The position numbers were made by a program, and so were the translations under genes. The notes under the pieces were generated by a model. It did no database searches and was not told the DNA's origin. It was given only the letters and a program-made list of their open reading frames with translations. Of a stretch of DNA of 64,000 bases, positions 7,101 through 43,107 are shown piece by piece. The DNA is taken from assembly GCF_020740795.1 (NCBI RefSeq), contig NC_067301.1, positions 6,076,001 to 6,140,000 on the forward strand, written 5' to 3'. Source of the DNA: Apus apus. Taxonomy: Eukaryota; Chordata; Aves; Apodiformes; Apodidae. Positions within the stretch are counted from its first letter, which is position 1; each line of letters begins with the position of its first letter.

Positions 7101-10100
7101 TTGTCAGGAGTGGTGGAGATGACACCTACAGCTCTCAGACCAGCCTGGAGGCTGTTTTTGGCTGTGCCACTTAATCACAGAGAAGAAACTTTACTGCTGT
7201 CCCTTGGTATCGTGTTGTGCTTGTCCAGCTGCAAGGTGGTGATTTTGGAAAGGTGTCATGATCATGCTGAAGGATGCTTTTGGATTCTTCTAGGTACAGA
7301 CTTGAGCTGTTTTGTGTTTCTTGTGAGGGGAGAAGCCCAAGCTCTCCTGCTCTGTGCTCAAAAATGCAGCTTGACTAACTTAACCCTCCTGCGTTCAGTG
7401 GTCAGCTAGTGTGTTGCTCCTTAAATGAAGGAGACATTGAGGCTGAGAGGATGTAGCTTTCTGGAGGGAGAGGGGTGATGCCATAGCAGTTACAAAGATT
7501 GCCCCAGCCCATTTGTACAGAACACTACCAGAAATGATTGACTGGTCACTGTCAGTTGCTCTTTCTTCTTCAGACATCTGGATTGGTGGGATACAAAGTA
7601 CAGAGGGGTGTGCAGGAGGGAGGAAGAATGCTTTCACAAGCAACCTACTGCTGGACTTCAGCCTGTGCTCTGAACCTTGTGCAGGCTACCTGACAATCTC
7701 TACTTCAAGCAGCAGGCAGTAGGGGGCTAGTTGAGAGCAGGTTGAGATGCAAAGCTGATGCTGCAGGCTAGTTGTCTTGGCAGTTTCCTGTTTTGACCCC
7801 ACCCCAAACTGACTTTTGAGACTGGACTAATTTACATTTCATACACAAATTCCAATTTTCTGTTGTCTTGCAGGAATGACACCAAGGAAGATGTGTTTGT
7901 CCATCAGGTAAGATTTCCTTGAAAGAGAAATGTGTTGCCTCTCTGAAACTTGCTAGGCATGACCTCTGTAAGCAGGATTGAAATTGTGGAAGGGCCTCAG
8001 GTTTCACAAGAACTGTAACTTGAACACAGTTGTTCTCTAACTAATGGCTCATAAGTAGAGCTTGCCTGCTTTTGGGGGTTTGCATATCCTGGGACTTGAG
8101 AATAACTGACTGAGGTCCAGTTAAGTTGCCTTGTGCATTAATATAGTTGCTGGCATCTGAAATGAAGTTAAATTACTAGCTTGCAGGAGGGAGAGAAATT
8201 AATTGGCCTATAATAAGGCTGAAGTGCCAGTGAAGACTTTTGTCTTCAGGCAAAAATTTTATGGAATTTATGGTTCCAGGCTTCTGATAAAAGCCTGAAA
8301 ACTTTTTAATAGATACTTGTTCAGTTAAACAGAGATGTATACTTTATTTGTGGGGAAAATTGTCCAGAATGAGACTGCACACCACACCTGTGCTTTATTT
8401 CACAGAGCAGGTTGGCCTTTAGTCCTTGGTGTCTGACTTGTAAGTCTGTGATCGGCTCTTGTGTTTTTACCCTTCCTGTCTTAGGATGTCTTGTGAAGCA
8501 ACCCCCAAAGAGTTCTTAGTGCAGTATGGTTTACTTCTGGCATTTCAGAGTCCATGGATTGTTCTTTTGTTTCAAGTTGGGGATATACTGCTGGTTTTGT
8601 AAACAAAGGGAAGATAAAGTAACCCCTGGGAAGTGTCTTGACTTGAGCTTTCAGCTTCTTCCTTGTGCTGTCTCTGAATCACTTGCTAATATGTGGAGGC
8701 ATTTATTTATTAAAGGCTGTTCTCTAATGGGCAGTGTAGAGAGGCCAAGTGACTCTGCTGTGTTTCTGTGTATGGAGACAGGAATATAGACCCTGAAGGA
8801 AAGCTTTCAGACTTTATTACTCAATTTGCAAGTAGGGTAACTTGTAAGTGACCTTGACTTAATGTCTGATTTCCAGACTTGCTATGTAAGTACTGACTGT
8901 TTCTAAAAGCACAGTTTGGCAGTTATTTGTTTTAATTTAATAACTTTCACAGTAAGCCAGTTTGGCAGGACTCATCTGAAAGAAATTCCCTTGTTTCAGG
9001 AGTTAAGAGCTGGGGATGTATTTTCCCACCCCCATTATCAAGCCTGGGTCTCATGAAGTTCTACTGTTGCAATAAGGTTTCCTGTCTTTCCCTAAAATCA
9101 CTGCTTTATAGGCTAAAATGGGGATGTTCTCCAATAGCTTTTGCTCCATTTAGGGAAAAAAATCTAGTTGACTTCTATTGCTGGTATTTTTCATAAAGTT
9201 GTTACTCTTGTATTACTGTTCAGTTAAAGTGTTTGATAAGCAGAATGTGACTGAGTGGTACGTGTTGAGTATTATCTGTCAAAAATCCATTGCTGAAAGG
9301 CACAGATAATGGGGTGGTTTCTAGTAATGTCATTTAATGGATAGATACTGACACAAAGGCTTGTCTGGTGCTGATGCCTTGGAAGGGCTAATCCTCGGTG
9401 TATAGTAAAGAGGTGGAGTAGATTTGTGATTAATTGGTAAACTTTGTGGCTGAAGTGATGGTATTAAAGGTCTTGGAGAAAGAAATCCCTTAATATCTGG
9501 CCACTGATGTGTTTACACTGCTTGGGACTGTCTCATGTGCATGTAGGCTCCTGCAGGCTGTGGTGCTGTGCCCATGGCAGAGGACTGGAGATCCCAGTGT
9601 GTGATGGGAAGGGCTCATACCTTGGTGCTTGTACTTCAGAGGGGTGTTGAATGCTAAACCCTGGTGAGGAACACCAGGCCCAATGTGTATGGGGGGGGGG
9701 GCAGTCTGTTTGGTTGTTTTCAAACTGCTTTTTCAGCTGGCAGGCAGCCTGTTGACAGATGTTTCTAGCCATGTGTAACACGTTTCAGATGAGCCAGAAC
9801 TATAATCATAGAGGTAAATTTTACGGCTTCCTTGATTTTTCACCGTGTTTTAATTGCTTTTCAGGAGCACAGGTCTTCCTCCTAAGGTAGCAGATAATCA
9901 AAATCCTTAATGTCAAAAGTCTTCAGGTACATTTAGTAGTATTTTCACGCTGTGCCTGTAGATGTAATTCTGTGTTATGTTGTTAGACTGCCATAAAGAA
10001 GAATAACCCCAGGAAGTACCTCCGCAGCGTAGGAGATGGAGAGACCGTGGAGTTTGATGTGGTTGAGGGAGAAAAGGTAAGTTGGTCTCCTGGGTGTCAG

Positions 10101-11263
10101 TGTGCACAGAGAACTCGGTCTGTAGACTTTGGTGTGGTGCGCGTGGTTTGAGTCGGTGCCTGATGACATCCAAGGAGATGAATGGGTTTCCATTGTTTTA
10201 CAGCGTGGATGTAAATTGTAGCTCGGCAGTAAATTATATTATGCCACGACTGATTTGATGCTGCTGTTACCTACCTCACGCTGTCTTCTTGCTCTTCAGG
10301 GTGCTGAGGCAGCTAATGTCACAGGTCCTGGTGGAGTTCCAGTGCAAGGCAGTAAATACGCAGCAGACCGTAACCATTACAGGCGGTATCCGCGTCGCAG
10401 GGGTCCTCCACGCAACTACCAGCAAAACTACCAGAACAGTGAGAGTGGGGAAAAGAACGAAGGAGCAGAGAACATCCCAGAAGGCCAAGCCCAGCAGCGC
10501 CGTCCCTACCGCAGGCGGCGGTACCCACCTTACTATATGCGTAGGCCCTATGGGCGTCGACCACAATATTCCAACCCTCCCGTGCAGGGAGAGATCGTGG
10601 AGGTAAGGTTGGCTGAGAGCGTGGTGCTCAGCTGGCTGGGTTCCTTTGGGGCAGGGTGAATTGTGTTCGCTTCCCATGTGAACTGGAAGAAACCAGAATT
10701 CTAACACTGTGTGCTCTTGTGCCCTAGGACTGCTGCCCACCTTGTAGGTCTCGTGCTTCACCTGGCAGCCCCTCGTGGTGCTAACAGGCTTTTCCAGGTG
10801 GCTAAGATGGTTTGTTGCCTAATGTCTTCCAGGGTGCTGACAACCAGGGTGCAGGAGATCAAGGCAGACCAGTCAGGCAGAACATGTATCGAGGTTACAG
10901 ACCACGATTTCGCAGGTATGCTGCAGGCCAATTTGTATCTCTGTTTTTCTAACCTTGCCTTTTGGCAACAGAGACAGAACATGGCGGTGGTCAGATGCTG
11001 CAATGTTAAAGCCCAGCTTGACTTTCAGGGGTCCTCCTCGTCAAAGACAGCCTAGAGAGGACGGGAACGAAGAAGATAAAGAGAACCAAGGGGATGAGAC
11101 CCAAAGTCAGCAGCCACCTCAACGTCGGTACCGTCGTAACTTCAACTACCGACGCAGACGCCCCGAGAACCCTAAACCACAAGATGGCAAAGAGACGAAG
11201 GCAGCCGAACCACCAGCTGAGAACGCGTCCGCTCCCGAGGCCGAGCAGGGCGGGGCTGAGTAA
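4189..11263 (+). CDS. YBX1: Y-box binding protein 1 (YB-1)
   Basis: YB-1 is a cold-shock-domain protein that packages mRNA, controls translation and splicing, and shuttles between cytoplasm and nucleus. Coding exons are 4189-4348, 4698-4761, 7874-7907, 9987-10076, 10300-10602, 10833-10915 and 11029-11263. They sum to 969 nt, or 322 aa, against 324 in human. The N-terminus is rich in Ala and Pro. The cold-shock domain spans about residues 51-129, with RNP1 [12 protein letters not shown] at 62-73 and RNP2 VFVHQ at 82-86. The C-terminal half alternates basic Arg/Tyr-rich and acidic clusters, which is the family's RNA-binding and nuclear-localisation region, and ends in EAEQGGAE. The start context gccgccATGA is strong. 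Every junction is GT-AG and the phases agree. The 5' UTR runs from about 4010 and contains a run of C near 4084-4100. Identification is near certain. Confidence 0.98.
4651..4670. repeat. (TTC)n microsatellite in YBX1 intron 1
   Basis: About six to seven TTC units lie in the pyrimidine tract that leads to the exon 2 acceptor. The 349-bp first intron also contains long C and G runs. Confidence 0.8.
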
Positions 11264-12969
11264 ACACCGGCTTACCATCTCTACCATCATCCGGGTGGGT
11301 GTGCCTGCTGGGGGCACTGGGAGGGGGGTGGGTCCTGAGGGTCACCACCAGAGCGTCTTGAGGGACTGCAGAAAGGGTCCTGATGACTTATTTCCTTTTG
11401 ATGCTTTCCTTGAATTGTTTTGCCTGGCAAGGTTTGGATTGTTCTTGCTGGTATTTGCTGTAACCAAACTGGCTGCACTGGTTAGTGGCAGCAAATCCAA
11501 ACTGAGATTTGGCTGCACAAACGCTGGTTGATCAGGAGGACCTTGACAGGCTTTAATTGTCATTGCTGGAGTCACTGCCTAGAATACTGTTGGTCTTAAT
11601 CTTGGCTGTGCTCAGTTGATCAGGCTCACCCCAGTGTTCACTGTAATGCACAGTAATCCCAGCAGTGCTGGTGTAGTGTCTTGGGAGAAGCAGGTGCTGG
11701 GATTTCCTTGACTCTGGAAGTGTCTGAGCTTTTCTTGCTTTGTCCCAAAGGAGAACTGAATAGCACTGAGACCTCCCAGCAGTGATTTCTAGAAAGCTGA
11801 CACAGAATTTGCCAGAGCATCTCAGTAAAATCTTTCTTTCTAAACAAATAAGTGCTGGAAAACTGGTAGAGAAAGAAGGTCCTTTTTATGGAGCATCCAG
11901 GGTGGTCAGAGTGCAGTGGTGCTGGGGGGGCTGGCTACTTAGGAGGATTGTGTAAAGGCTGGTGTTGGAACGTGTTCATTGCAAGGTAGACTGGCTGTGT
12001 GCTGTCTTGATGGACAGTTGTGCTCATTTGGGAATGTTTTCATTGCTAAGACTTGTCCTGTTTTTTGGCCAACACCTTTTTTTTTCCTGTTCCTCCTCTC
12101 TCTTTCCCTGTATTTCTTCTCTCCAGTGTTCATGTCCTGTTCCTGTTGTCTCTCACTGCCTGGAGGGCAGGCAAGTGGAAAGATGTAGTTAGGCTGTAGT
12201 GGGAGTGGTAATGAGTGGTCACATTAATGGGATGAGCTGGGAGTGCAGGAATTGGGCATGCAAGAGTAGCTTGATGTCAGCAGCAGCCACAGACATCTCC
12301 CAGCTGTGAGATCTTAGGGGCTCATTCTTCAAGGGCTGGGATCCTGTTCTGTTGTTGTGCAGGTGGATTACCTGATAGCTTACAGTGTTCTCTGTGTGCT
12401 GTGTCAGCCTTTGTTTTATTCTGGTGTTCATCTTAATGGTTAACACAAGATGGATGAATTTTTAATATGGTGGGATTCAGAGAAACACCCAAGATGGCAC
12501 TTGGGTTGCTCTTCCTGTTTGTTGATAGTATTGGAGAATATAAACTGTGGTTTCTGTGGTCTGAGCAGTGACTTTCTGAAGCCACACTGCCTAGGTTAGG
12601 CACAGGTAGAAATCTGCTCTTCAGCCATCTTCTGAAGATCTTCAGTTGTCCTCCTGCCTTCCCAGGGGTTATCTCAGAGTTCAAAAGCTGCATTTCCAGG
12701 CTGGTCTCACAGGACTGGAGCTGTGTGTTGGCTGCAGAGCCCAGTGGGAGCATCTCTCCCCAGGAGGCCAGTGAGGGGACAGGGTTACATGGGATTCCAT
12801 TGTGCTTCAATTTAAAGTTTTCTCTTTCTGGAGTGCTGTGCATTTGTGTTTCGTGGAACATGGCTGTTCTGGTCACTGAAAGTGGGCTGATGAGTGGCAG
12901 TGTAGTGGACAAAATACCTGTGTAAGCCTCTGACACCTGTCTGATCTTTCTTTTTCCTCTCTTTTTCAG

Positions 12970-15669: not shown

Positions 15670-18408
15670 TCACACACGGGAGTCCATGGCATACATCTTG
15701 CTGGTGGTCGTTCGGGGCTGGGGAAGCCTCTTGGGTTGCCAGTGGCTGCTGGGGTCTGCGAGGAAAGAGTTGGGCTTGTGTCATGTCCATCTGCAAAGCA
15801 GGGGGGCTTGGGGTGCACCACAGCATGAGGATGTGGCAGGAGATATTAACCCAGTCACCCCGTGCTGTGTGGTCAACTTCCACCCCTTGGGACCAGACAA
15901 GGGCTGGAGATGATGCCTGGCAAGGCATCACCTGCCCCATGTCCCTGGTGACCCCCACGGCCAGATTGCCACTGGCACATCCTTGTAGCCACTGGCACAT
16001 CCTTGTAGCCACTGGCTTAGGCTGTGGCTGGTCACAGTGATACAGCTCCAGCACAGCCACTGCTGTGGGTAGAGAGGTCAACACACATTCACCAGGACTT
16101 TGAGGTCCCACAACTGTGGATGGAGCATTTTTGCACCCCCTTGGTGCCCTTATGGGGTCCTCACTCAGCACAGTCCTGCCTGGAACGCCCCAGCTGAGGT
16201 GCACAGGCAGCTGTGAGGGGGCTCCCCTTGCTTTGGCCGGACCCTGCAGTAAGTGCCTGCACCCTCTGAGCTGGTCCTTCACCCCGTGTCCATCCTGCAG
16301 GGCCAAAAGTTACTTAAGGTGGGGTGGGGTGGGACAGACTGACCTGCGCGGGTGTAGAGGCAGCAGGTCAGCAGAACAGATGCCATCAAGCAGCCCGTTG
16401 AACCAGCCATCCCCAGCCAGCATGACCACCCGAAGTCATAGTGGACTCCCAGGAATATATTGTGTGACACCAGCGTGGCCCTCTCCACATACACATCTAC
16501 TGCATACCACACGGAGCCCACCAAACCCAGAAGGCCTAGGAGGAGGAATGGGGCTGGTTAAGAAAGGACCATGCAACCCCCCCATGCTCCCCAAGACCCC
16601 CTGAGGGGGGACCCCTGACTCCCAGCATCCCTGTGGGACATGAAGTCCATCTGCCCCTGAGCTCTCCCAGCCACATACTTGCAACACCAAGGATGACACC
16701 AGCCCCATAGCACATCTTCAGTTTGACATGAGGCTCTTCCTTGAGGAGCTTGATGCAGTCAAGTCCAAGGATCAATGTAGCCAAAGCCAGGCCAGCCAGG
16801 AGGTCCCCTGTGATCAGCAAGGTCCTTGTCACCACAATCTTCACTGAGCAGGGAAGGAAAAAAGCCCAGAAAAGGGAGTGAGGTATTGTCAGAGGAACTG
16901 GTCTCCCCACTCCAGATTGCAGTCTGTGTCCCTGCTGGAGTCATCCAGCTCTCCAGTGGTCATGTCCATAGGAGATGTCTACACTAGAAGCCACCAACCC
17001 CATGCCTACCATGGTGCTGTAGGCAAGGTGCTTACCAAACTCAGCTGAAACCTTGCAAGAGGACTGAATAAGCCCTTTATATCATGTAAGTTATTAGACC
17101 AGCTCAAGGCACCAAACAATCTAGGTGCACCAATCAGCACCTGGGATGTGGTCCAGGTGCTCGAGACCTTCTTGCACGGGCTTCAGCTGAAGATGCTGCT
17201 GTCCAGCCTGTCTGGTTTTTCCTCCCAGTTGTGTAGCGGGTGTTTTGAACAGCAAACATCAACATACCACTGAACACCAGGAGAGGTGGTGGGGTTGGCA
17301 TCCCCAGCTGTGTGCAGCGTGACTCCTCCCTACAAAGCTTTGTCCCCAGAGCAGCACCATAGCCCTGCTTTAGTCCATGCTGACCTCTTGTTCCCTTGTT
17401 CACTGCCTGAATTTATGTTGTCCCGTGTCATCACCCTATAGGAGGGTTCTTCTGTGCAAGGCAAGAAGTCTCCAGACCAGGCTATGAGCTGTCCATGAGC
17501 TGAGGACACAAGTGGGAATGGCCCTCACACCTGCAGGCAGCAGTGACAGGGTTGCAAACCCCACCATGCCCCGTAGGGTAGGAGCTGCACTTGGGCTCTG
17601 TGTGCCAAAACACCTTTGCTGTCAGGTGGCACAGCTTCATGGCCTCTCTTCTGCTTGGTGACTCCATGGCAGGTCTGGCTGAACCCTGGGTTCAAGCTGT
17701 GCTAAAGGGGCAGGAGACCCAGAGAAGCCCTGGACCTGCCTTGCTAACTGGTGGAAGTCAGCCCTCTGCATGAGGATCATCACCTCAAAAAAGGTAAGAG
17801 GGAAACCTCTCAGCTATGAACTTGAAAAATGCCTCCAGGCCGTGGTATCTTACCTGGATGGTCTGCCAAAATGGAGTCATACTGGTCACAGGTCCTGACC
17901 CCATCCTGCATGTTGGTGACACACTCCCTCCAAAGCCCCCGGCATTTGTGACTTACCTGGAAGCAGAAGAAAGACACCCAAGGAAAAAACACCAACAAGC
18001 ACCCCAGCTTCCCAGAGATACCCCAACCCAGCAAGGCAGATCTGCAGGCTATCTCCTCCATAGCTGGACACGTCCCTCTGACTCTCTACCCATGCCATGG
18101 TGTTTGTCTTCTCCTTTTGCTCCAGCATTTCCCTGTCTCTCCAATCCTCTAATCCTCCAACTCATGCAGAAAGCAGTGGGTTTGTCCCACCATGTCCCCT
18201 TTCCAAGCCCGTGGAGACGTGGTGCAGCCCCGTGGATGTCAAGGCACTCACCTTGCTCCCAGCTGCTAAACTTGAACATGGTTGCTCTGCTCACCTCCAA
18301 GCTGTCATCTGCATTCACCATCCAGCAATCCGTGCACGTGGCAAGGAGCAAGAAGAGGGTTGAGAGAAGAGCAAGAGCAAAGGCTGTCATCTGCAGGGCT
18401 GTGCTCAT
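15670..18408 (-). CDS. CLDN16-like: Claudin-16-like tight-junction protein
   Basis: This is a four-pass tight-junction protein of the claudin-16 type. In mammals claudin-16 forms a paracellular cation (Mg/Ca) channel with claudin-19. Exons on the minus strand are 18295-18408, 17854-17956, 16679-16843, 16344-16535 and 15670-15755. They sum to 660 nt, or 219 aa, with matching phases and GT-AG borders. The claudin signature W29, GLW 45-47, C50, C61 is complete. Stretches shared with mammalian claudin-16 include [15 protein letters not shown] in the first loop, [12 protein letters not shown] and [12 protein letters not shown]. The first loop is acidic (D34, D35, E38, D65, D70), as in the cation-selective family. 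The C-tail is short (about 28 residues) and ends in KMYAMDSRV, a PDZ-binding motif like the human TRV. No damage is seen. The 165-bp exon has the same length as CLDN19 exon 2. It may be the avian CLDN16 itself or a paralogue. Confidence 0.92.
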
Positions 18409-20621
18409 GGGGCCACCTGCAAGGACACAGAGACATCTACCACCTCTGCTCTGGCCACTTCCCAGGTACCTGATCCATCAAGAGCAAAGTGCCACCTAGG
18501 CCAGGGAGTCCTCTGGATCCCTCTGAGTGATCTGGGCCCCATCTGATGGGTCTTAGTGCTGCCAATATTATCTCATACCCTGAAGAGGGGTTGAGCAACC
18601 AGGTTTGCATAAAGGTGGGGCCTTTAGGGATACATTAATTTTGGAGTGGAGTGGAGACATACCCCCATCAGGTTGCTCTCTAGATGTCCTCTCTTCCAAA
18701 CAGACCATCTGAAGTTGCCAACCATTAGTACTTGCTCTTTGCAAATCAAGAGCTGGAAACTGTTGTCAACCTACTACTGTTGTCAAAGCCTGTGATCTGA
18801 ATGTGTGTCTCCTGATATCCTGAGGTTTTCCAGATGCCTCCAGTGCTGCAGCCATGTGATGCAGTGGGAAGATCATCTACCTTTTCTTGCTTCCCCCCCC
18901 CCACAATAAAAGCAATGAAGTGCTGAAACATCCAGGCTGGAGCACAAGCAGATGTGCCACGGAGGTGTCCTAAGCTCAAACTGCAAGCCCAAAGAGAGCA
19001 TCTCCCATTATGGAGGTGGATGAGGGCTGCTGGAACTTGATGTGAGTGCCCTTGAGTGCTGCCAGGGCTTTCCAAAGACCAAAAAAGGATGGACCATCGT
19101 TGCCAGAGATGGAGGGACTCTTCAGAGAGGGGACCCGTGCCCAAGGGGTGGAATGGAGGACACGGTATCTCCACAGCCTGGCCATGAGTCTTGCTTTGCT
19201 CTGTCTTGCACCCCAAGATGCTAAATATTTTAGTGCCTTGAGCTGCAACCCCTGAGACAGCCCTTTGAGCAGAGAGGTTCCCGTGAGTAGGTTAATTAAC
19301 GAAACCTCATGGGTCTCTGAGCTGCTTGGGTTAATTATGCTAGGGTGATGACTCTTCACCAGGGAAGAGTTGTGACCTTCAGCCCGACGCTGCCCGCCCT
19401 GGCGTGGCACTGCCTTGTGCAGCTGAGGTAGGAAGGAATTCTCCCACAACATCCCCTCCTGGCATGTCACTGGGAGCAGAGGCACCACTGACCCCACCTC
19501 TTCAGGCATTGCCACCAGCTCCAAGCTGAGAGTGTCAGTTATTAGCAGGCAGCCTCTCAGACCCTAATTTACACTGGTTTTTAATTTCCCAGACTCCCTT
19601 CTGAGCTAGCTCTCTATAACCTTGGGGTTTTTTTTTCCACTAGATCCTGCCTGGTTTGGAGCTCTTGAAGAAAATCTGTTCAGCCATTTGAGCCCTATGA
19701 GCAAGTAAAATAAGAGAAGGAAGAAAACGAAGCAAAACCACGACCTGAAACTGCAAAGGAATAAAAAAGGGCTCAGGGGGGAGCGTTACCTTCACTGCAG
19801 GCTCATCCTTGCTGGGGTGGGACGGTGGCAAAAGATCCTTGTCCTCACTGTCTGGGGAGGTGGCTCTTGAAGGTTTTAAAGGGCCGGGGGGATGTGGTCC
19901 TGACCCCAGCGGGTCAGAGAGGGGCAGTGCAGTGCCTGCTGGAGCCTCTGCTGGGGTATATAAGGTTTCTCTGAGGCACGTCAGATGGGCTTTGTGCTCC
20001 ACAGCATGATGGGCTTCCCTGTGGTTAAAACTCTTAATACGGTGGAAGCAGAGCCTCTCAAAAAAATATCACATGGGGTAACCCGTGGAAACCCGCTGGG
20101 AACACTCCCCAGGTGGGAGACTCTGTGTCCCAGGTGAATATCCCACAGTTTCTAATTAGAACTTTTAATTACTAACCCAGGGGCCTGAGATATGCTGGGT
20201 CCCCAGGTCTGGTGCGAGGGAATCGGAGTAATAGAGGTGGCTGGAGAAAGAAGCTCAAGTGTGAGTGGGATAATTAAAACCCCTTGGTCAGGCACGCAGC
20301 CAACAATTAAGCCCTTTTCATTTTTCCCATGAAGTGGAAAACAAGCAGTAACCACTGCAGTGGGTAATGGCTCGGACAGCGTGCCTGGTCAGTCCACAAC
20401 AAGGGTTTTGTGATCCTGGGAAGTTGTGTCCTGGCTGCCTGGCCCTTGGAATTGCCCTCAAACCTGCAGGTTTGCTAGCTGATCCCTTGCTATTTGGAAA
20501 AAAAAATTGGGTTTGCTCCCACTGTCTTGTGTCGTGGCACCTCCTGAGCAGCCCTGGGATCAGCCTCCCCTGCAGGGCCATCCCTGCACCCTGCTCACCC
20601 AGCCCCACGGCAAGCACAGGG
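18409..20621. other. Intergenic or 5' region of the claudin-16-like gene
   Basis: On the minus strand there is a good acceptor (tccttgcag, AG at 18417-18418) eight bases before the start codon. This means an upstream non-coding exon exists. Two HNF1-like motifs lie at 19291-19300 (GTTAATTAAC) and about 19330-19338. AT-rich homeobox-type motifs lie near 20150-20180. No coding gene is recognised. Confidence 0.5.
19790..19964 (-). promoter_or_regulatory. Candidate promoter and 5' UTR exon of the claudin-16-like gene
   Basis: On the minus strand the sequence ccttatatac (revcomp of 19956-19965) is TATA-like. About 30 bp further along, a transcript could start near 19925-19930. A plausible donor AAG|gtaacg ends an exon at 19790, and the matching acceptor lies just before the claudin start codon at 18416. 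This gives a non-coding first exon and a 1.4-kb intron. The same motif also reads TATATAAG on the plus strand, so the direction is not settled. Confidence 0.3.
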
Positions 20622-21002
20622 AGTCACAGAGTCATGGAATGGTTTGGGCTGGAAGGGACCTTCAAGATCATCCAGTTCCAACCTCCTGCATGGGCAGGGA
20701 CACCTCCCACCAGCCCAGGCTGCTCCAAGCCCCATCCAACCTGCCCTTCAACACTGCCAGGGCTGGGGCAGCCACAGCTTCCCTGGGCAACCTGGGCCAG
20801 GGTCTCACCACCCTCACAGTGAACAATTCCCTCCTCATGTCTAATCTAAATCTCCTCTCTTCAAGTTTAAACCATCCCCCCTTGTCCTCTCCCTCCCTGC
20901 CCTTGTCCCAAGTCCCTCCCCAGCTTTCCTGGAGCCCCTTCAGGCACTTCAAAGCCACTACAAGGTCACCTCAGAGCCCCCTCTTCTCCAGGCTGAAACA
21001 TC
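20622..21002 (-). mobile_element. CR1 LINE fragment, 3' end
   Basis: The left edge reads agtcacagagtcatggaatg, the reverse complement of the CR1 3' tail. The sequence then follows the typical CR1 3' region back to 'ctcttctccaggctg'. It is 5'-truncated. Confidence 0.9.
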
Positions 21003-21379
21003 CTTATTTCCATTTGACAGGTCATATTTAAGAGATGCACTTGGGGGTTTTTGAGTGTGGTGGGTTTTTTTTTGTTGTTGGTTGGTTGTTTTTTTTGTTT
21101 TGTTTTGTTTTCCCCTGATGATAATGCTCTCTGCAGCACTAAACAGGGGGAGGGATTTTGGCAACACCCCTGGGTCTTGGCAAATCCATGAGCTTCAGCC
21201 CTGCCGAGGCACCCGCTGGCTGGACGGCTGTGGCTGCTGCTGCTTTGTTGTGGGTTCTCCTGTTTTCCCAGAACTTCAGCACATGGCAGGTCCAACACTC
21301 AGGCATGAGTACTGAAATGTCCAGGAGGGTTTCTGTGCTTTCATTTCATTTTCATGGGCTGCATCAAAAGACACACAGC

Positions 21380-21948
21380 CAGCTGGTCAGGAGAGGTGGT
21401 TCTCACCCTCCGGTCTGCTCTGTGAGACCCACCTGGAGCTCTGTGTCCAGTCCTGGAGTCCCCAGCAGAAGAAGGACATAGAGCTCCTCAAGCATGTCCA
21501 GAGGAGGCCACGAAGATGATCAGAGGGCTGGAGCAGCTCCCCTGTGAAGACAGGCTGAGGAAGTTGGGGTTGTTCAGCCTGGAGAAGAGGAGGCTCCGTG
21601 GTGACCTTAGAGCACCTTCCCAATATCTGAAGGGCCCTACAAGAAAGCTGGTGGGGCTTTTGACACGGGTGTGGAGTGGGAGGACAAGGGGCAATGGTTT
21701 GAAGCTTAAAGAGGGGAGATTCAGGTTGGATATTAGGAAAAAGTTCTTCCCTGTGAGGTGGTGAGAGCCTAGCCAGGTTGCCCAGGGAAGCTGTGGCTGC
21801 CCCATCCCTGGCAGTGTTGAAGGGCAGGTTGGATGGGGCTTGGAGCAACCTGGGCTGGTGGGAGGTGTCCCTGCCCATGTAAGAAAGTTGGAACTAGATG
21901 ATCTTGAAGGTCCCTTCCAACCTGAGCCATTCTATGATTCCATGATTT
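21380..21948 (+). mobile_element. CR1 LINE fragment
   Basis: This is a forward CR1 copy. It runs from the 'ggtggttctcaccctc' region of the reverse-transcriptase end through 'gttcttccctgtgag' to a tail reading ccattctatgattccatgat. It is 5'-truncated, with the opposite orientation to the copy at 20622. Confidence 0.9.
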
Positions 21949-24304
21949 TCCATCACTTACATTTCAGGAACTTGGGGCACTTGGACATCCACGACATGAA
22001 ATTCTGGTGTAGCCCCAAGCAACACAAAACTGCAGGTGCATGCCCTGGGGATACCCATAAAAAGGCTTTATTTTTCTTTTCTGCTCATTTAAACAGTCTG
22101 TTGATTATCTATCAAACTAATCAGCCTTGTCAATTATCAGCTGAAACCTTTTGGAAGTTTCAAAAGATACAGGCAGAGGGGCAGATCTATCAGTCGTTGA
22201 ATAATGAAGATAATTTCCCTGGTTAATGAAGCTGATAATCTAGGTTGGTAAAACCAGTTTGCTAAAAGAATTGTGCTGACAGGAGACCCAAATCTTTGTG
22301 CTGGCAGGAACAAATGAAAAGAAATAGAGATGTTTCCTGTGATGGGACCATCTCATGGAGGTGGAGGAGTCTTGGTAGGGCACGTCAACAAATAAAATGG
22401 AATCAAGATTACTAAAAAAACCCCCAAAGAAACCAAAATGAAACCACCATCAAATAAAAGCAGTCGTGGCTCAGAAATGTGAGAAAAGCCCCTTTGCTTG
22501 TGGAGCAGCTGCCCAGGGCAGCTGGATATAACAAGGATTGTTGAAATGGATTTTTTTACATTATGCTAATTTATTATCAAAAATTATCATTGTTTTTCTC
22601 CTACCCTGTTACTCATGTGGAATTTATTCTGCTGCACTTTGGTGAGATTTGCCCTGATCTTGGGGGGGATTGGGGGTGGATTTTCCTTTTCCCCCTCATT
22701 TCTGCCTATGTAAAACTGAACATAATTTCACAGGGGTTTGTATTCTAGCAAGAGGTATGACCAGGGAATGAAATCTTGATCGTTATGCTGATTTTATTAA
22801 AGAAAAGCAGTGTACTGGGGAGGGGGGGGGGACAACATTTCAGGCTGGATGGGGTGGGGACTGAGGCAGATGCCACGTGTTGCAGTGCGCCCGGCGTCCC
22901 GTCCCCATGTTTTATCCTGCTTTGCCCTGTGCAAAACACACGAGGGATTGTCTGGAGGACAGTGGGGGCCTTTATACCCCTGAGCATGTTATTGCTGCTC
23001 AGCTCTTTTTTTCCCACCCACCCTCCTCTTTGTTGTGCTTCCAGCCTGCGTGTCCAGCCCCAAGGAGCCTTCGGGTGACTCATGCGGATCTCGTGGGAGC
23101 CTCCAAGGACCTCAAATCCCTGCTCGTGGAGATGGGGTATGTTTGTAGGCCAGGTGCCAGGAGCTGGGTGAGGATGCTGAAATAAGAAACTGGATGTGCA
23201 AAAACCCCGGGTGGAAAGTAGAAGACCCCAAGGAAAACCAGGGACATCATCATGTGGGGGAGGGGGGGGGGTGGGTTCTCCCCCTTTGCAGGGAAAGCAA
23301 AAACCATCTTAAATTAGCAAAATGCCTAATTAGGCACAAGCCAGTTCTGAACGAATGGAAAATGGGTGATAATAAGGGAGAGCCCAGCTCTGAGGGTCCA
23401 GAAGAATGTGAGTAAGAGGAGGGTGCTGGTTGCACTTCAGCCTTGGGAGGAGCCCAGCTGAGGAACCCGCTGGAAGCACAAGATGCTGGGTGCAACCCTG
23501 CTGCATGGACATCTGGGCTTCCATCATGGGTCTGGCTTTCAGCCAAGCAATTTTTAAGGCCCTATCCCCTCCTCTGAGGGGCAACACGTGGCAAAAAGGC
23601 ACAAGACACTCAGCTGGCACCTGCCCAGGATGGCAAAACCTGCGCAGCATGGGGAGAAGTTGCTTTGACCCAGCCAAGGAGCCACTTGCAGGGGGCTGGG
23701 CCAGATTTGGAAGGAGGGGGGGGGGAAACAAAGAGACAATTTTAGGAAGGCACCCAGGACTGGAAATATTTTAATACCACTGAGTCACAATTTTTAGTAC
23801 AAACAATCAGCAAAAAAAAAATGCATTTAAAAATCCCAACGGGTCCCATCCCCACAGCCACGCACGGAAAAGTTAATGCAATTTTGTATTAAAAGAATAA
23901 AACCACTCTTGTACAGAAAGCTGGACTCTTGGGATAAAAATACCACTTTAGATCGATTCTTTTTTGAAGCACAAGTATTCCTTTTCAATCCTTACTGCAG
24001 GAGCTTTTGGTGTGCATTTTTGGAGTGGAACCCCCAGAAGTCGGGCTCCACCAACCAAGCACCTGATGGGTGAAGACAAGACTATAAGCACTGTTCTCCC
24101 CTGATGGGTGAAGAAGACATTTTTACAGGGGGTCTGCAATTTAAAAGAGAAAGAGGGATGTTAGTCCCAGGTGAGAAAGAGAAAACACACCCTCTGGACA
24201 AAAAATAGCATCACTTCCCCTCCAGCATGGACCAGGACCCAAAGCGGTGCATGGACATCAAACACTATAGAGGGAAATAAAATCAAAAATTAAATAAAAT
24301 CATC
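21949..24304. other. Intergenic DNA between the two claudins
   Basis: No exon is recognised. The left part (22080-22260) is AT-rich and holds a GATA-motif cluster listed separately. The remainder holds G runs (22803-22811, 23262-23271, 23718-23726) and AT-rich stretches near 23760-23960. Confidence 0.5.
22105..22238. promoter_or_regulatory. Homotypic GATA-motif cluster (candidate enhancer)
   Basis: Six WGATAR motifs occur in 134 bp: 22105-22110 (-), 22109-22114 (-), 22134-22139 (-), 22187-22192 (-), 22208-22213 (+) and 22233-22238 (+). About 0.26 would be expected in random sequence of even base composition. The cluster lies between CLDN19 and the claudin-16-like gene, about 3.7 kb upstream of the latter's start codon. 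Function is inferred only from motif density. Confidence 0.35.
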
Positions 24305-24773
24305 AAATCATAGAATGGGTTGGAAGGGACCTTCAAGATCATCCAGATCCAACCCCCCTGCATGGGCAGGGACACCTCCCACCAGCCCAGGTTGCTCCAA
24401 GCCCCATCCAACCTGCCCTTCAACACTGCCAGGGATGGGGCAGCCACAGCTTCTCTGGGCAACCTGGGCCAGGGTCTCACCACCCTCACAGGGAAGAATT
24501 TCTTCCTAATGTCTCACCTAAATCTCTTCTCTTCAAGTTTTGATCCATCACCTCTTGTCCTCTCCCTCCCTGCCCTTGTCCCAAGTCCCTCCCCATCTTT
24601 CCTGGAGCCCCTTCAGGCACTGGAAGCTGCTCTAAGGTCTCCCTGGAGCCTTCTCTTCTCCAGGCTGGACACCCCAACTCTCCCAGCCTGTCCTCATAAT
24701 GACCCTTTGGATCATTTTTGTGGCCTCCTCTGGACACGTTCCAATGGGTCCACATCTTCCTTGTGTTGGAGAA
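24305..24773 (-). mobile_element. CR1 LINE fragment
   Basis: It begins with atcatagaatgggttggaag, the reverse of the CR1 3' tail, and runs through the standard CR1 3' sequence to 'gtccacatcttccttgtgttgg'. It closely resembles the copy at 20622 and is probably the same subfamily. Confidence 0.9.
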
Positions 24774-25234
24774 GAGAGGAAAATAAAATCAAGCCGAAGA
24801 GAATTTAAAAATCAGCTCCTCCAGCTAATTTGGGTTAAAAAGAATTAAAACAATAAAGAATAATCAAGCTCTTTGGATCATTTCTGCTGTTTGGGGCAGG
24901 TTAGCTGGCATAGCAGGAGCAACATGGATGGACAGATGGAGACAAGGGGAGTCTTGGGGGGGTTTATGGATGAAATCAGAGCTGTGGTGCTTGCAGAGCC
25001 GTTAGGAGCCATCAGGACGAGGTACAAGGAGGTGGAGACAATGAGCACGTTGGTGTATGATGACTTCACCGTCAGCTCCAGGGAATGGGGGCAGGAGGGG
25101 GTGGGAAAGAGGGATTTGGACTCAGCAGGGAGGCATCAAAACTGATGTGGCTGTCCATCTGCTACCTGACTGGATCAGGTAAAATAAAAACAAACCGCTG
25201 GTTTGTGTTCAAAGCCCCTTTTTTTGCCTGCTTT
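24774..25234. other. Intergenic DNA beyond the CLDN19 3' end
   Basis: No gene or repeat is recognised. The start is A-rich. Confidence 0.5.
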
Positions 25235-25250
25235 AATTTGTCCAATGTTA

Positions 25251-25256
25251 TTTATT
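25251..25256 (-). terminator. CLDN19: Candidate CLDN19 poly(A) signal
   Basis: On the minus strand AATAAA lies about 750 nt after the CLDN19 stop codon. It would give a 3' UTR of about 770 nt. Other weaker hexamers exist in the AT-rich stretch nearby. Confidence 0.4.
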
Positions 25257-25393
25257 CTTCTGCTTAACAAGGCCACATACTTTCTCCCTGTGCCTGGTGA
25301 GAAATAAGCCCAGGGCAGCCCTGAGCTGGCAGAGCTCAGCTGGAACCCCAGCAACTGGGCAGCTTCTAATTCCTTGTCTGCTCGAATCAAGAA

Positions 25394-25440
25394 TTAACAA
25401 TAATAATAATTAATAATTGATAATAATAGTAATAAAAATT
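25394..25440. repeat. AT-rich (TAA)n microsatellite
   Basis: This is a run of taa/taat units in the presumed CLDN19 3' UTR. Confidence 0.7.
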
Positions 25441-26004
25441 CTAAATGTTTCCTTTGGGTAGCAGTGAGGCAGAAGCATCCCTCTGCCAAAAGTGGGGACA
25501 GGCCTCCTTGAGCCCCAGGTTGGGCTGGGTCTGATACTTGGTGGGCTTCATCCTGGGAAAACCGAGCACTGGCTTCGCTCCCCACTTGCTCTTGACACCA
25601 GGGCTGCAGGATGCCCAGCCCGGGGAGTCACAGCACAAAGCACCTCCACGCAGAACCTCCCAGGGCACCAGCACCAAGCCCCTGCAGGGGCCAGCTTGGC
25701 TCTGCTGCTGCCTGTGCTCCACAGCATGTGTGGCAGACACGGTCCTGCTGCCCACAGCCCGGCCATCCCTGTGGGGGCAACCCCTCTGGATGGGGCGAGC
25801 AGTGACAGCTACAGGAGCTGTGACCCCCCCAGAACACCCTGGTTTAGAGGACGGTGCTGCAAACAGTTCTGAACCCTGGAAGATGAGGAGGAACAGGAAG
25901 GTCTCCTGGGGCATCCGGGAGCCACGCAAGGTGGGAGCGCCGGGGTCTTGCCTGTTTTTGGGAGGGGAGGGAGGCGTTGGGTGGCAGGAGGGCAGGGTTA
26001 GGAA

Positions 26005-28797
26005 TCAGACGTACTCCCGGGCCGTGGAAGGCTGTGACTGCTGGTAGTACTGCTGCCCTCGCCGCTCCTTGGTGGGGCAGGAGCAGCACAGGAGGGACCC
26101 CCCCAGCACGGCGAGGCTGGCAGCCCCCCAGCCGATGAAGAGAGCCGAGCCGAACTCGTACCTGCAGGGAGAGAGAGGGGAGCATCAAGGGAGGGGGGAC
26201 AGAAAAGCCAGGAGGGCAAACTGAAACAGGCACAAGGATGCTTGAAGGCCTGACTACAGCAACAGGCAACATCGAGGCACAAGTTGGGTTGTCTTCTCTC
26301 TGGCCATTCCCATCTTTCATGTTGGCTGGATCCAGCTACTAGGCTTCCCTGTGCTTTCATCCTCTCTTGGGCTGAAGCTCCAGGTGAGCACTCTTGCTCT
26401 CTCCCAGATCAAAGTCGGTGGTGGTACCAGCTACAGATTTTGTACCTGGGAGACCTTCTGCACCACAGCAGCTGTGGGATAGCATAGGTCCCACCACGAC
26501 TACTCAGCGCATCTGCCTATGACCCCGTGGTGCCAGAAGGGGCAAAGTCCTGCAGGAAGCACAGCAACAAGGTGGGATTTGGATAAAGAGCACCCTCCAA
26601 GCTTGGCTTTACCTGGCGTTGACGGGGACAGTGCTCTCTCTGAAGAACTCGTAGGTCACCTGTGTTGCGTACAAAGACACGGCGGCCAGGGTGCACAGAC
26701 CTGGATGTCAAACATTGAACATCAGCAACACCCAGTCCATCACCAGACCAGCTCCTCACCCTTTTTTTTTTTTTTTTTTTTTCCCCATCAAACAGCTTTT
26801 AGAAAGTGTTCTGAGTTCTTCTCCATCAGAGAGGCCCAAGGGTTGGAGCTGCCTTACCGGAGAGGACGAAGAGGATGCCACCAGCAACAGCGATGCGGCT
26901 CTTGGTAACAGGGTCCTCTTCTCCAACTTTGGTGCATTTCATGCCCACCACGCTGACAATTATGCCGAAGAAGCCCAGGAGGAGAGAAATCACCATTAGA
27001 GCCCGGGAGGTCTGGATGTGAACTGCAAAGGGTGGGAAGAAAAGCCACTAGCCAGCAAGTGCTTCCAGGGAGAGCCGGGCTCTCCCAAAGCAAGGTCACC
27101 TTGGCCTGTGCTGGGGATGAACCTGCCCTCAGCCCCGTCACTGCTGAGTGGCTCCTGGGTCCCCCCCCTTTCTTGCACTGCTGGGGAGACCTCAGCTCAA
27201 CTTGGGGCACAGCTCCCAAAGCCTCTGTGCTCTTCCTCTGCCACACTCCTCCTCACCATGAGTTCCCAGGCTGAGAAGCACTTGGCTTGCAGCAACACCA
27301 CAGGCAGTGATGCAGAGCACTGGGGGTTATGATGTCCCCACGGGGCACTGGTGGTCCCCAAACATGTTGCCCACCCCGGTAACCAAACCCATAGGGCCAG
27401 GGCAGGTCTCAGGCACACAAAGGGGCTCAAAGCCAGGGAGACCAGAGGGGCCCAGACCCCTCCGGTGTTGGGAGCCCAGAACAGCTCAGATCCCAAAGTG
27501 GAGGGGAGAGGCTTGGACTCACGTGGGGGCTCATACCAGTGGGGGGCAAAGGGGGCTCAGACCCTTTTGAGGGGGGCTTAGGAGCATTAGAGGGGCTTAG
27601 ACCCCTGGCTGAATGGCTCAGACCTGCAGAGGACACAGATCTCTGGGGGGGCCAGGGTTGTTCAGAGCTGTGGGGCCACTCAGATGTGGAGAGGGTACAG
27701 ACCTGCTGGAGTTGGGGTTTCCATTCACAGAGCTCAGACCCATATTGGGAGGGGGATCAAACCCACAGAGGGCTCAAACCCATATTGGGGGGATCAAACC
27801 CACAGAGGGCTCAGACCCATATGGGGGGGGGATCAAACCCACAGAGGGCTCAGACCCATATTGGGGGGGGGGTGGGATCAAACCCCCAGAGGGCTCAGAC
27901 CCATATGGGGGGGGATCAAACCCACAGAGGGCTCAGACCCATATAGGGGGGGATCAAACCCACAGAGGGCTCGGACCCATATTGGGGGGATCAAACCCAC
28001 AGAGGGCTCGGACCCATATTGGGGGGGGGATCAAACCCACAGAGGGTTCAAACCCATATTGGGGGGATCAAACCCACAGTGGGCTCAGACCCATATTGGG
28101 GGGGGGGGGAATCAAACCCACAGAGGGCTCAGACCCATATGGGGGGGGATCAAACCCACATGGGGGGATCAAACCCACAGAGGGCTCAGACCTATATTGG
28201 GGGGGGGTGGGATCAAACCCCCAGAGGGCTCAGACCCATATGGGGGGGGGGATCAAACCCACAGAGAGCTCAAACCCATATTGGGGGGATCAAACCCACA
28301 GTGGGCTCAGACCCATATGGGGGGGGATCAAACCCACACGGGGGGATCAAACCCACAGAGGGCTCAGACCCATATGGGGGGGGATCAAACCCACACGGGG
28401 GGATCAAACCCACAGAGGGCTCAGACCCATATGGGGGGGGGATCAAACCCACACGGGGGGATCAAACCCACAGAGGGCTCGGACCCGCAAGGGCAGCTCG
28501 GAAACCCAGGGCAGCTCCGTCCCCCCGGAGGCAGCGGGGCAGCTCCCCAGCGCTCCCTCCCCCCCTGTACCCACCGTCGAGGGAGAGCAGCGAGTCGTGC
28601 AGGCGGCACTGGACCTGCCCGGTGCTCTGGGCAGCGCAGCTCATCCACAGCCCCTCGTGGAGCCCCACGGCCGTGATGATGGCGTCCCCGGCGTACGAGC
28701 TCTGCCTCCACTGCGGCAGCACGGCCGCCGCCAGCGCCGACACCCACCCGCCCAGCGCCAACAGGTACCCCCCCAGCTCCCGCGCCCCGCCGCCCAT
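26005..28797 (-). CDS. CLDN19: Claudin-19
   Basis: Claudin-19 is a four-pass tight-junction protein. In mammals it pairs with claudin-16 in kidney and also acts in peripheral nerve and eye. Exons on the minus strand are 28575-28797 (223 bp), 26858-27022 (165 bp), 26613-26700 (88 bp) and 26005-26161 (157 bp). They sum to 633 nt, or 210 aa, with consistent phases. The signature W30, GLW 49-51, C54, C64 is present. The first loop [14 protein letters not shown] is identical to mammalian claudin-19. The tail ends STAREYV; the REYV PDZ-binding end also matches mammalian claudin-19. An in-frame ATG exists 14 codons upstream (28837-28839). The inner start is preferred because claudins have very short cytoplasmic N-termini and it aligns with the human start. 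Intron 1 contains a minisatellite, and a second array begins about 70 bp upstream of the start codon. Confidence 0.96.
26762..26782. repeat. Poly(T) run in CLDN19 intron 2
   Basis: About 21 consecutive T lie 60 bp upstream (plus-strand sense) of exon 3's acceptor. Confidence 0.8.
27731..28492. repeat. Minisatellite in CLDN19 intron 1, about 21 units
   Basis: Long units of 36-44 bp follow the pattern atcaaacccacagagggctc / agacccatat(t) / G-run of 6-10. Four short 19-bp units (atcaaacccacacgggggg) are interspersed. Near 28321-28470 short and long units alternate three times, forming a higher-order repeat. The copies differ mainly in G-run length. Degenerate versions of the motif extend leftwards to about 27420. 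Confidence 0.95.
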
Positions 28798-31577: not shown

Positions 31578-34500
31578 TCATAGCTCATCTTTCCCCACCG
31601 CAACAGCAGCTGGTGGCTCCTGCTTCGGCTCCTGCAGCAAATCCTTCTCTTCTGGGCTGAAAAGCATCTTCACCAGGTCGTCCGCTTGCACACGCTCCTG
31701 TGGGGCAGACCCACGGGGGTAAGCATGGCCATTATCCCCCCCAAGGACACCCACCCACTGCCAGGGAGGGAGCCTACCCGCTCGCTGTGTCGGGGGTCCA
31801 GGGTGAACCAGAGGGCGATGGCACAGCGCTGGCCCTTGGTCACAGCTTTCACCCCGTGGGGGTTCTCTGAGCCAGAGGAGAAGCCCACGGCACGACCACA
31901 CTGTGGCTGAACCTCTGCCTGCAATGGATGGAAGAGCCTCATCAGGTGAGGGGGAGAGTTGGTCCCCCTCAATCTACGTTCAGCCCTTGAAGTGGCAGCA
32001 AGGACTTCCACAGAGTGATGCTGGTTGGAAAAGACAGAATCATAGAGTCATAGAATGGTTAAGGTTGGAAGAGACCTTAAAGATCATCAAGTTCCAACCG
32101 TGAGCAGGGAACCCAATCACTAGACCAGGTTGCAAAAAAACCTTGTCCAACCTGGCCTTAAAAACCTCCAGGGATGGGGCATCAACAGCCTGCTGGGCAA
32201 CCCGTTCCAGTTCCTCACCACCCTTATGGTGAAGAATTTCTTCCTAATATCTCACCTAAATCATTGAGATCATCGAGTCCAACCATAAACCCAGCTCTAC
32301 CAAGTCTGATGCTAAATCATCTCTCTCAGCACCAGATCTACATGTCTTTTAAACACCTCCAGGGATGGTGACTCAACCACCTCCCTGGTGGGAGCCTGTG
32401 CCAGTGTTTAATTACACTTTCAGTTAAGAAGTTTCTCCCAATATCCAGTCTAAACCTCCTCTGGTGAAACTTGAGGCCATTTCCTCTTGTCCCATCACTT
32501 GTTCCTGGGGAGCAGAGCCTGACCCCCCCTGGCTCCAACCTCCTCTCAGGCAGTTGCAGAGCCAGAAGGTCTCCCCTCACCTCCTTGTCCACAGGCTGGA
32601 CACCCCCAGCTCCCTCAGCTTATATTCAGCTGCTGTTGACCAACACCCCCAGGTCCTTTTCTTGCTGGGCACTTCCCAGGCACTCTGCCCCAAGCCTGGA
32701 GCATTGCAGGGGGCTCTTGTGACCCTTGTTGAACCTCATACAATTGTCCTTGGCCCATCATTCCCAGGGGATGGAGCCAGCAGGCAGGAGCTGGGATTGG
32801 TGCTGCACATGGATCCTTAAGGAGCTGAGCTACTTACAGTCTCGGTCTTGGCATCCAGCTCAGTGAAGTAGAAAGCTCCTCCTTCAAAGTCCCCGTTGAG
32901 GTAGAGGATGGCACTAAAGGAAGCAGGGGACAAGCAGAAGTGATCATTATCACCCCAGACCACAGCTCCAGTAGCTGGGAGCTCCTCTAACACCACAGCA
33001 AGAGCTAGAGGCAGGAGAGCCCGGTTTGGGTTGTCAGCCCACCCTGCTCCTCCCAACCCTGGTGCCACAAAGCCATGGTGCCCTCAGGTGAGGAAGCTCT
33101 GATGATACCACTAGTACCTGTAATCCCGGAAGGTGTAGGCTGGAGGTTCCTTCACACACACCAGGGCTTCTGCATTGAGGATGCAGTTGTCCACGTGCAC
33201 CTCATGACTGTTGTCACTTCTACCTTCTTGCTTCTCTAGGGTGGAACAAGACCTGGCACATCAGGATCCCTTTGTCCCTGCAGGACCATGAACTATCCCA
33301 AATCACCAGGAGCTAGGAGGTGACAAGAAGGTCACCTGTAGCCTAAAACCCTTTCATTTGCTGAAGTGACCACGAGAGGCCATTCTGGCAGCACAAGCCT
33401 CTGTTGACTTGTGCCACAGCAATTCCATGGTTCTCCAGTCACAGCCTCTCCCAGCACCCAACCCCAACTGCCTCTGGGTGATGAAATCTGGTATGGCATG
33501 AAGCCACCTACTCCACTGGAGACAACCAACAGAGCTGCTCATCTTCCCAAACCAGGCTTAGGGATGAGCTCCCCACACCTTCCCTTTGGGAAAAGGAGCA
33601 GGTTAGGGAGAACCAAGGAGGTCTCCAAGGAAAGGTCCAAGACTAGACCACCCCAGCTGTGGGAGAGGGCCCAGACAGGACAAGAGGCTGAAGGGAGATT
33701 TGCTCCTCCTTGGCCACGCTCACCATCAATGGCTGTACGGCACACCAGGTGGGAGTAGGAGAAGTGGAGAGGGACCTCCAGGCGGAAATAGGACTCCATC
33801 ATGTGCCGCACCTTCTCTGTCATGTTGTAGTAGAGGTAGGCACTCTGCAGGGGCACCCTGCCCTCCTGGCCCAGCTGTGGGGGATGGACAGGACATGGGC
33901 TCAGCCCCAGGCAGGCTGGGCAAGCACGGGCAGCTGCCCACCTTCAAACCTCTCACTCTCTTGCCTCCACAGCCTGTTTCCAACCCCTTCCCACAGCCGC
34001 CCTAACCTTGAGGGCCTTGAGGACAGTCACACCATGGAAGGTCTCACTGGGAGTGTGAGGAGATGTCTTCCCACGATAGCCATCCCCGGCCGAGGCAGCT
34101 GCCTGCAAAGCCCAATCAGAGAGTTACCAGTCTGACTTCTGAGCCCCAGGATGGGACTCTTCAGCACCGTCCCTGTCCGCTCCTCCTGTCCCCCCACTCA
34201 CGTTGGAGAGTGCCTGCAGCTCTTGGCACTCCTTGGTGGAAAGGACCCCATCCACCACCACGCGCTGGGAGCCATTCAGGGCCTTGGAGTTCATGGTGAC
34301 ACTGGCTCCTTCGTACACTAAGGGGCCACCTGTGGCACAAACGGGATCAGAAGGGAACAGGGATGGGTGCCACCAGCCCTGGGGTACAGCGCTGGGGGAA
34401 GCAGCGGTCCTGCCACCTGCTCCTGCCACAACCCATGCAGAGGGCCCGTGAGCTGGCAGAAGGGACGTGGAGGTCCCCACCCCACTTCCCCTCCTGGCCC

Positions 34501-39437: not shown

Positions 39438-39527
39438 CACCGAGCCCGGCCCGGCACGGCACGGCCCGGCACGGCGGAACCGCGGCCCCCCCCCCGGACG
39501 GAAGGGGCGGGGCTCGGCGGGGCCGGG
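39438..39527. promoter_or_regulatory. Bidirectional P3H1 / C1orf50 promoter
   Basis: Only 90 bp separate the two divergent start codons. The segment has no TATA box. It contains the repeated motif cggcacggc (39450-39474), a C-run, an ETS-like core (acggaagg, 39498-39505) and a GC box (ggggcgggg, 39504-39512). Both 5' UTRs must therefore be tiny or overlap. The same head-to-head arrangement exists in mammals. Confidence 0.8.

Positions 39528-43107
<3,580 letters not shown>

Follow-up and report, generated by a model that had tools for sequence, protein, structure and literature searches.

Human CLDN16 (paracellin-1) lies at 3q28, and together with CLDN19 it acts as one kidney channel, yet the two human genes occupy different chromosomes. 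According to the available portions of two reports, CLDN16 alone forms no strands and integrates into those of CLDN19 (PMC9411157), and CLDN14 drives CLDN16 out of the CLDN19 polymer (PMC12704743). The accessible part of a further account gives W-LW-C-C as the first-loop signature of claudins; its Table 4 covers CLDN16 disease missense variants (FHHNC) at 32 human positions, and ties variants at L151, G191, A209, F232 and L145 to a study of the CLDN16-CLDN19 interaction (PMC7140793).

The window, i.e., the whole stretch of 64,000 nucleotides of Apus apus DNA that was analyzed, is part of contig C21 of an assembly of 1.10 Gb in 110 contigs. Its features, and those of a second locus on contig C9, are collected in Table 1. 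The sequence-only reading had described two complete claudin genes on the minus strand, about 7.6 kb apart, and coordinates, open frames and GT-AG introns (7 of 7 in the two genes) all agree: CLDN16L (claudin-16-like) lies downstream of CLDN19, with 7,596 bp between the coding regions.

Table 1. Features of the CLDN19-CLDN16L window and of the CLDN1-CLDN16 locus on contig C9.
Feature	Position	Strand	Description
YBX1-like gene	~4570..11400	plus	cold-shock motifs; opposite side from P3H1
CLDN16L (claudin-16-like) CDS	15670..18408	minus	5 exons, 219 aa, 660-nt CDS
CLDN16L exons 1-5	18408-18295, 17956-17854, 16843-16679, 16535-16344, 15755-15670	minus	splice sites and ORF
Splice-acceptor-like site upstream of CLDN16L ATG	18409..18428	minus	GTGTCCTTGCAG / GTGGCCCC / ATG, 8 nt before ATG
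Candidate TATA box (TTATATA) and candidate 5' non-coding exon ending GAAG/GTAACG	19790..19962	minus	by eye, weak
CLDN19 CDS	26005..28797	minus	4 exons, 210 aa, 633-nt CDS; PF00822 E 2e-36, above the Pfam cut-off
CLDN19 exons 1-4	28797-28575, 27022-26858, 26700-26613, 26161-26005	minus	splice sites and ORF
P3H1 (leprecan family)	31673..39626	minus	same strand as claudins; Pfam and exon matches to C9
C1orf50-like exons	40944..42390	plus	ORFs listed
CLDN16	C9:15060306-15053350	minus	intact, 5 exons, 237 aa, GT-AG introns
CLDN1	C9:15074261-15083743	plus	matched with window CLDN19; name presumed

The exon model of CLDN16L gives an intact frame without internal stop. The product exceeds the Pfam cut-offs for PF00822 and PF13903, with 52.5 bits for PF00822 (PMP22_Claudin; curated cut-off 26.7), which assigns it to the claudin family, and claudins account for all 10 of the 10 best listed matches of its sequence to solved structures (best E 1.5e-11). 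Among the best 120 of 228 matches in a protein search, it shares 91% identity with an owl protein across the entire length and 69% with a protein of the elephant shark. These identities, together with a pN of 0.26 versus a pS of 0.69 against CLDN16 of the same genome (62% identity over 219 aligned codons), rule out chance, and pN and pS point to long-lasting purifying selection on CLDN16L. A pseudogene is ruled out by the open frame, the splice sites and pN/pS. The acceptor-like site just before the ATG implies a non-coding exon upstream. Intron 4 of CLDN16L carries, at 15968-16016, 2.5 copies of a 20-bp unit with zero mismatches. At the exon 1/2 junction (18252-18294 in Apus), inserts of 8-25 residues occur in the first loop of 11 of the 92 CLDN16L protein clusters described below (e.g., P0006, P0012 and P0013). 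They look like the use of a downstream donor; 3 further clusters show longer, odd joins. The alternative donor in Apus, 43 nt further on, would break the frame.

The name CLDN19 is presumed, and an annotated Vidua macroura claudin-19 agrees with it. That entry, claudin-19 isoform X2 (P0194, 411 aa), consists of CLDN19 exons 1-3 joined in frame to CLDN16L, at a point which also directly precedes the CLDN16L ATG. It shows that the two genes are adjacent in Vidua, the sole hint of this adjacency outside the Apus genome, and the annotation perhaps reflects read-through transcription in that species; in the Apus window such a join, located 8 nt before the ATG, would not preserve the reading frame. 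Directly upstream of the CLDN19 start codon (28870-29627) is a tandem array of an 85-bp unit (9.1 copies, 93% matches), which could act on the CLDN19 promoter. Another array, of ~37-bp units, occupies 27732-28486 in CLDN19 intron 1, and the repeats between the two genes (20600-21000, 21400-21950 and 24300-24750) are presumably CR1-like.

The name P3H1 follows human synteny. In the span which we take to be P3H1, five ORFs were scanned, of which two contained TPR_leprecan (PF23557), one contained 2OG-FeII_Oxy_3 (PF13640) and two had no match. The YBX1-like gene contains NVRNGYGF (ORF 4193-4762) and KEDVFVH (ORF 7797-7919), which we take to be cold-shock motifs of YBX1; the single ORF scanned in its span (10222-10656) had no Pfam match. 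With P3H1 and YBX1 on its flanks, the CLDN19-CLDN16L pair lies in what is presumably the human 1p34.2 order, which the exons assumed to be C1orf50 also fit.

A Pfam search of the genome revealed claudin exons near C9:15.07 Mb; none of the 32 matches listed was an exon of CLDN16L or of the CLDN16 on C9 (Table 1). When goose CLDN16 was used as the query against twenty 10-kb stretches of C9 (200 kb), a second gene was found, 14 kb from CLDN1. The Apus genome carries both CLDN16L and a separate intact CLDN16, i.e., at least two CLDN16-type genes. It is the C9 copy that is linked to CLDN1, while CLDN16L adjoins CLDN19. The sequence-only reading had named, as the finding that would overturn it, a single avian CLDN16 with no copy beside CLDN1; this is not the situation in Apus, and the intact C9 gene likewise rules out the translocation of a sole avian CLDN16 to the CLDN19 locus. 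Exons 1-4 of the two genes are identical in length (114, 103, 165 and 192 nt), and the last exon measures 86 nt in CLDN16L versus 140 nt in C9 CLDN16.

The neighborhoods of the two genes were compared by matching all 1,576 window ORFs (at least 25 residues) against the 200 kb of C9. This yielded 147 matches at E <= 1e-4, many of them repeats, and the ORFs with at most three matches were examined. The P3H1 exons of the window match an exon run at C9 ~15178281-15192400, where P3H2 is presumably to be expected, assuming the human 3q28 order. Both contigs thus have the order P3H - CLDN1/19 - CLDN16-type, with changed orientations: P3H1-CLDN19-CLDN16L in the window and P3H2-CLDN1-CLDN16 on C9, as far as the two flanking gene families compared are concerned. 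The TP53/63/73 genes, YBX and CLDN7 are assumed to be markers of the same paralogon.

For the phylogeny, 196 clusters were drawn from three protein searches (the best 120 of 228, 253 and 245 matches), and the read-through fusion P0194 was excluded from all trees and residue counts. The careful tree contains 60 rows, namely the window gene, 54 chosen clusters and 5 outgroup claudins. In this tree, CLDN16L forms a clade of 23 rows (support 88/97) and CLDN16 a clade of 31 rows (90/97), neither of them starred, and each clade includes one elephant-shark gene. The quick tree was built from every cluster except P0194 (195 in all), together with the window gene and 5 outgroups. It recovers a CLDN16L clade of 92 clusters plus the window gene; the CLDN16 rows form no clade in it and P0184 falls outside everything. 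A first tree, discarded owing to a faulty wrong-frame outgroup row (out_L001), contained a starred clade of CLDN16L with lamprey (98/97) and placed the cartilaginous-fish CLDN16s outside both groups. CLDN16L is a clade apart from mammalian CLDN16 in all three trees, and their comparison shows that the CLDN16L clade is stable and that the arrangement on the CLDN16 side is less secure.

A recent origin, in which a bird or sauropsid ancestor acquired a duplicate of CLDN16 next to CLDN19, would account for the common exon layout and the 62% identity, and a newly arisen copy of this kind was one of the two origins proposed in the sequence-only reading. It is contradicted by the AU tests, in which a single clade of bird CLDN16L and bird CLDN16 was rejected at p-AU 1.2e-43 and the corresponding sauropsid clade at p-AU 3.5e-8, values that are somewhat generous since an initial tree was already known when the groups were chosen. 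Moreover, frogs, ray-finned fishes and the elephant shark also belong to the CLDN16L clade, and the neighboring genes are paired as well. A recent duplication can consequently be given practically no credence. In a further AU test, whose value is somewhat generous for the same reason, a clade of all seven cartilaginous-fish genes, as expected if the elephant-shark pair arose by a duplication specific to that group, was rejected (p-AU 2.0e-4). A CLDN16L clade lacking the elephant-shark gene is compatible with the data (p-AU 0.38), and lamprey P0084 fits either clade equally in the careful tree (p 0.48 each way). The careful tree and the AU tests thus indicate that the duplication predates living jawed vertebrates; its date relative to the cyclostome split is not fixed by the trees.

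Gene structure and intactness, two paralogues in the Apus genome, a separate clade and paired synteny are all matters of observation, and for the origin of CLDN16L the second round of whole-genome duplication (2R) appears most likely on comparative grounds. As expected of a 2R ohnologue, the duplication precedes the jawed-vertebrate crown and paralogous neighbors (of two gene families) occur at both loci. An ancestral block, P3H - CLDN1/7/19-type claudin - CLDN16-type claudin, would have been duplicated ahead of the jawed-vertebrate crown and given rise to P3H2-CLDN1-CLDN16 on one side and P3H1-CLDN19-CLDN16L on the other. An alternative is that a segment was duplicated in ancient times, earlier than the jawed vertebrates, and then translocated. 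In its favor, the trees show only that the split is older than that of cartilaginous and bony fishes and leave the lamprey gene unplaced, and just two flanking gene families were compared. The P3H-family and CLDN1/19-type genes, however, stand in matching order on both contigs, which implies that three or more genes were duplicated as a block and favors whole-genome duplication; we therefore consider a segmental origin improbable. Taking origin, fate and function together, we think it likely that CLDN16L is a 2R ohnologue of CLDN16 which was lost in mammals and would serve as a pore subunit inserted into CLDN19 strands.

As named in the databases, the 92 clusters of the CLDN16L clade belong to birds, crocodilians, turtles, squamates, three frogs, a sturgeon, two eels, two bony-tongues and the elephant shark. 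None of the 36 named mammalian clusters (among the best 120 matches per search) falls in the clade, and mammals appear to have lost the gene. The alternative origin in the sequence-only reading, an ancestral claudin pair kept in birds and lost in mammals, is well supported in its essentials; its restriction to birds was too narrow, given that by these names the clade extends through the other reptiles and frogs to some ray-finned fishes and the elephant shark. The matches listed included no CLDN16L cluster from clupeocephalan teleosts, coelacanth, lungfish, salamanders or caecilians, which is weak evidence of absence. Also among the matches listed, 11 other species have one cluster inside the clade and one outside, and in the goose the two (P0046 and P0116, one per group) are on different contigs, of 8.7 Mb and 27 Mb, respectively.

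Public entries already name the gene "claudin-16-like" or "claudin-16", and the "claudin-16-like" entries are not labeled as ohnologues. The chicken entry XP_024998463.1 (P0028, "claudin-16-like") belongs to the same clade as Apus CLDN16L, with 82% identity over 93% of the query. Unlike the Apus gene, the chicken model seems to run into intron 4 and is missing its final exon along with the PDZ-binding end; the missing exon may be either an annotation error or a real change. In the available parts of the literature on claudin evolution, synteny, ohnologues and gene loss, no account of the origin of CLDN16L was found, and a prior description is possible. The accessible literature on bird kidney claudins and on the CLDN16-CLDN19 channel contains no account of the origin of the pair, and under the gene's name the available text comprised a mouse cochlea paper and an eel paper (PMC8227761).

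The CLDN16L protein resembles CLDN16 in its claudin family, exon 1-4 lengths, first-loop pattern, most disease-hit residues and class I PDZ end; it is distinguished by its own clade, another locus, a less acidic first loop, a shorter C-tail and seven group-specific residues. Its neighbor CLDN19, the known partner of CLDN16, is also a claudin, but has a different exon plan (223/165/88/157) and belongs to another claudin branch. The first-loop residues W29, L46 W47, C50 and C61 (owl numbering) are invariant in 32 aligned CLDN16/CLDN16L proteins. An AlphaFold2 model of the owl orthologue P0001 (rather than the Apus protein) shows long helices, at a mean pLDDT of 65 with the first loop too uncertain for a pore to be assessed, and the best PDB matches of this model are claudins, none at E <= 0.001.

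At the 32 disease positions taken from the accessible Table 4 and numbered on the gorilla protein P0102, the human residue is kept at 25 in CLDN16L versus 29 in C9 CLDN16. The seven changes in CLDN16L are C80F, G88L, L145I, G162A, L167I, G198S and T303S. At L145, where, according to that table, a proline variant causes disease, isoleucine occurs in 91 of the 92 members of the CLDN16L clade, and T303S preserves the class I PDZ motif S-R-V. Such a motif ends 58 of the 92 CLDN16L clusters, many of the remaining 34 being partial or mis-ended models. Seven positions separate CLDN16L from CLDN16 at more than 90% each (P0084 and P0184 left out of the CLDN16 counts), and elephant-shark P0062 has the CLDN16L-type residue at five of them. 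The net charge of the first loop is -4 in CLDN16L, -7 in C9 CLDN16 and -6 in gorilla, and the medians are -4 for CLDN16L (88 of 93 rows with a full loop) versus -7 for CLDN16 (89 of 102 rows). The weaker charge reflects E133 to Q and, in six sauropsid CLDN16L representatives, W118 to R.

We infer, as a working position, that CLDN16L may be a pore subunit which inserts into CLDN19 strands. It would be a tight-junction claudin, like CLDN16 probably unable to polymerize alone, and as the greater part of the CLDN16 sequence is retained, it would be expected to depend on CLDN19 in the same way and to prefer cations less strongly. The acidic first extracellular loop would favor cations, probably less strongly than that of CLDN16, and the C-terminal S-R-V would bind PDZ proteins of the ZO type. 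We likewise infer the CLDN19 partnership, ion selectivity and tissue of CLDN16L. Alternatively, CLDN16L may be conserved but act apart from CLDN19, e.g., by forming a barrier or by serving outside junctions in the gut, skin or oviduct, its adjacency being merely inherited. The weaker charge of the first loop agrees with such a role, as does the derivation of the CLDN19 partnership from CLDN16 only. On the other hand, L151, G191, A209 and F232, all tied to the interaction study, are retained in CLDN16L, as is the PDZ-binding end. An independent role is thus possible, but we view it as rather doubtful.

In the available text of a Xenopus study, the intermediate tubule of the pronephros is a site of overlap between cldn16 and cldn19 (PMC2441470), and in that of a chicken study, kidney "CLDN16" is expressed and at week 19 is lower in one strain on the low-phosphorus diet (PMC11812262); neither signal is assignable to a particular paralogue. 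In eel larvae, the accessible part of one report records a "claudin-16-like isoform X1" that is 7.9-fold lower in non-viable larvae (PMC8227761), matched to the CLDN16L clade by name alone. As far as the available passages go, a salmonid paper states that of Cldn14, 16 and 19 only Cldn19 was found in fish kidney (PMC11605958), and an eel review that cldn16 and cldn19 are undetectable in seawater eel intestine (PMC8215749); both count against a general role in fishes. The accessible text of four chicken papers (PMC11812262, PMC12009728, PMC7935255 and PMC12657149) makes no mention of a second CLDN16-type gene, and one set of chicken CLDN16 qPCR primers (PMC12009728) has no clear match at either Apus locus, with 5-6 mismatches at best. 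Antibody, qPCR and annotation work on chicken "CLDN16" may mix the two genes or miss one of them.

The paired loci suggest that CLDN16 once had a CLDN19-type neighbor and CLDN19 a CLDN16-type one, and that one member of each pair survived in mammals; the apparent mammalian loss of CLDN16L would thus leave CLDN16 and CLDN19 on different chromosomes. Genomes with two CLDN16-type subunits and one CLDN19 offer a natural experiment on pore selectivity. More tentatively, CLDN16L and CLDN19 might represent a putative ancestral channel pair that is physically linked, is regulated jointly and predates the arrangement in mammals. Non-mammals would then have a choice of two pore subunits, with CLDN16 and CLDN16L in competition for CLDN19 strands. 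If true, this competition would provide a tunable divalent/monovalent selectivity that was lost in mammals, and its loss would help to explain the heavy reliance of mammals on CLDN16 for the reabsorption of Mg and Ca.
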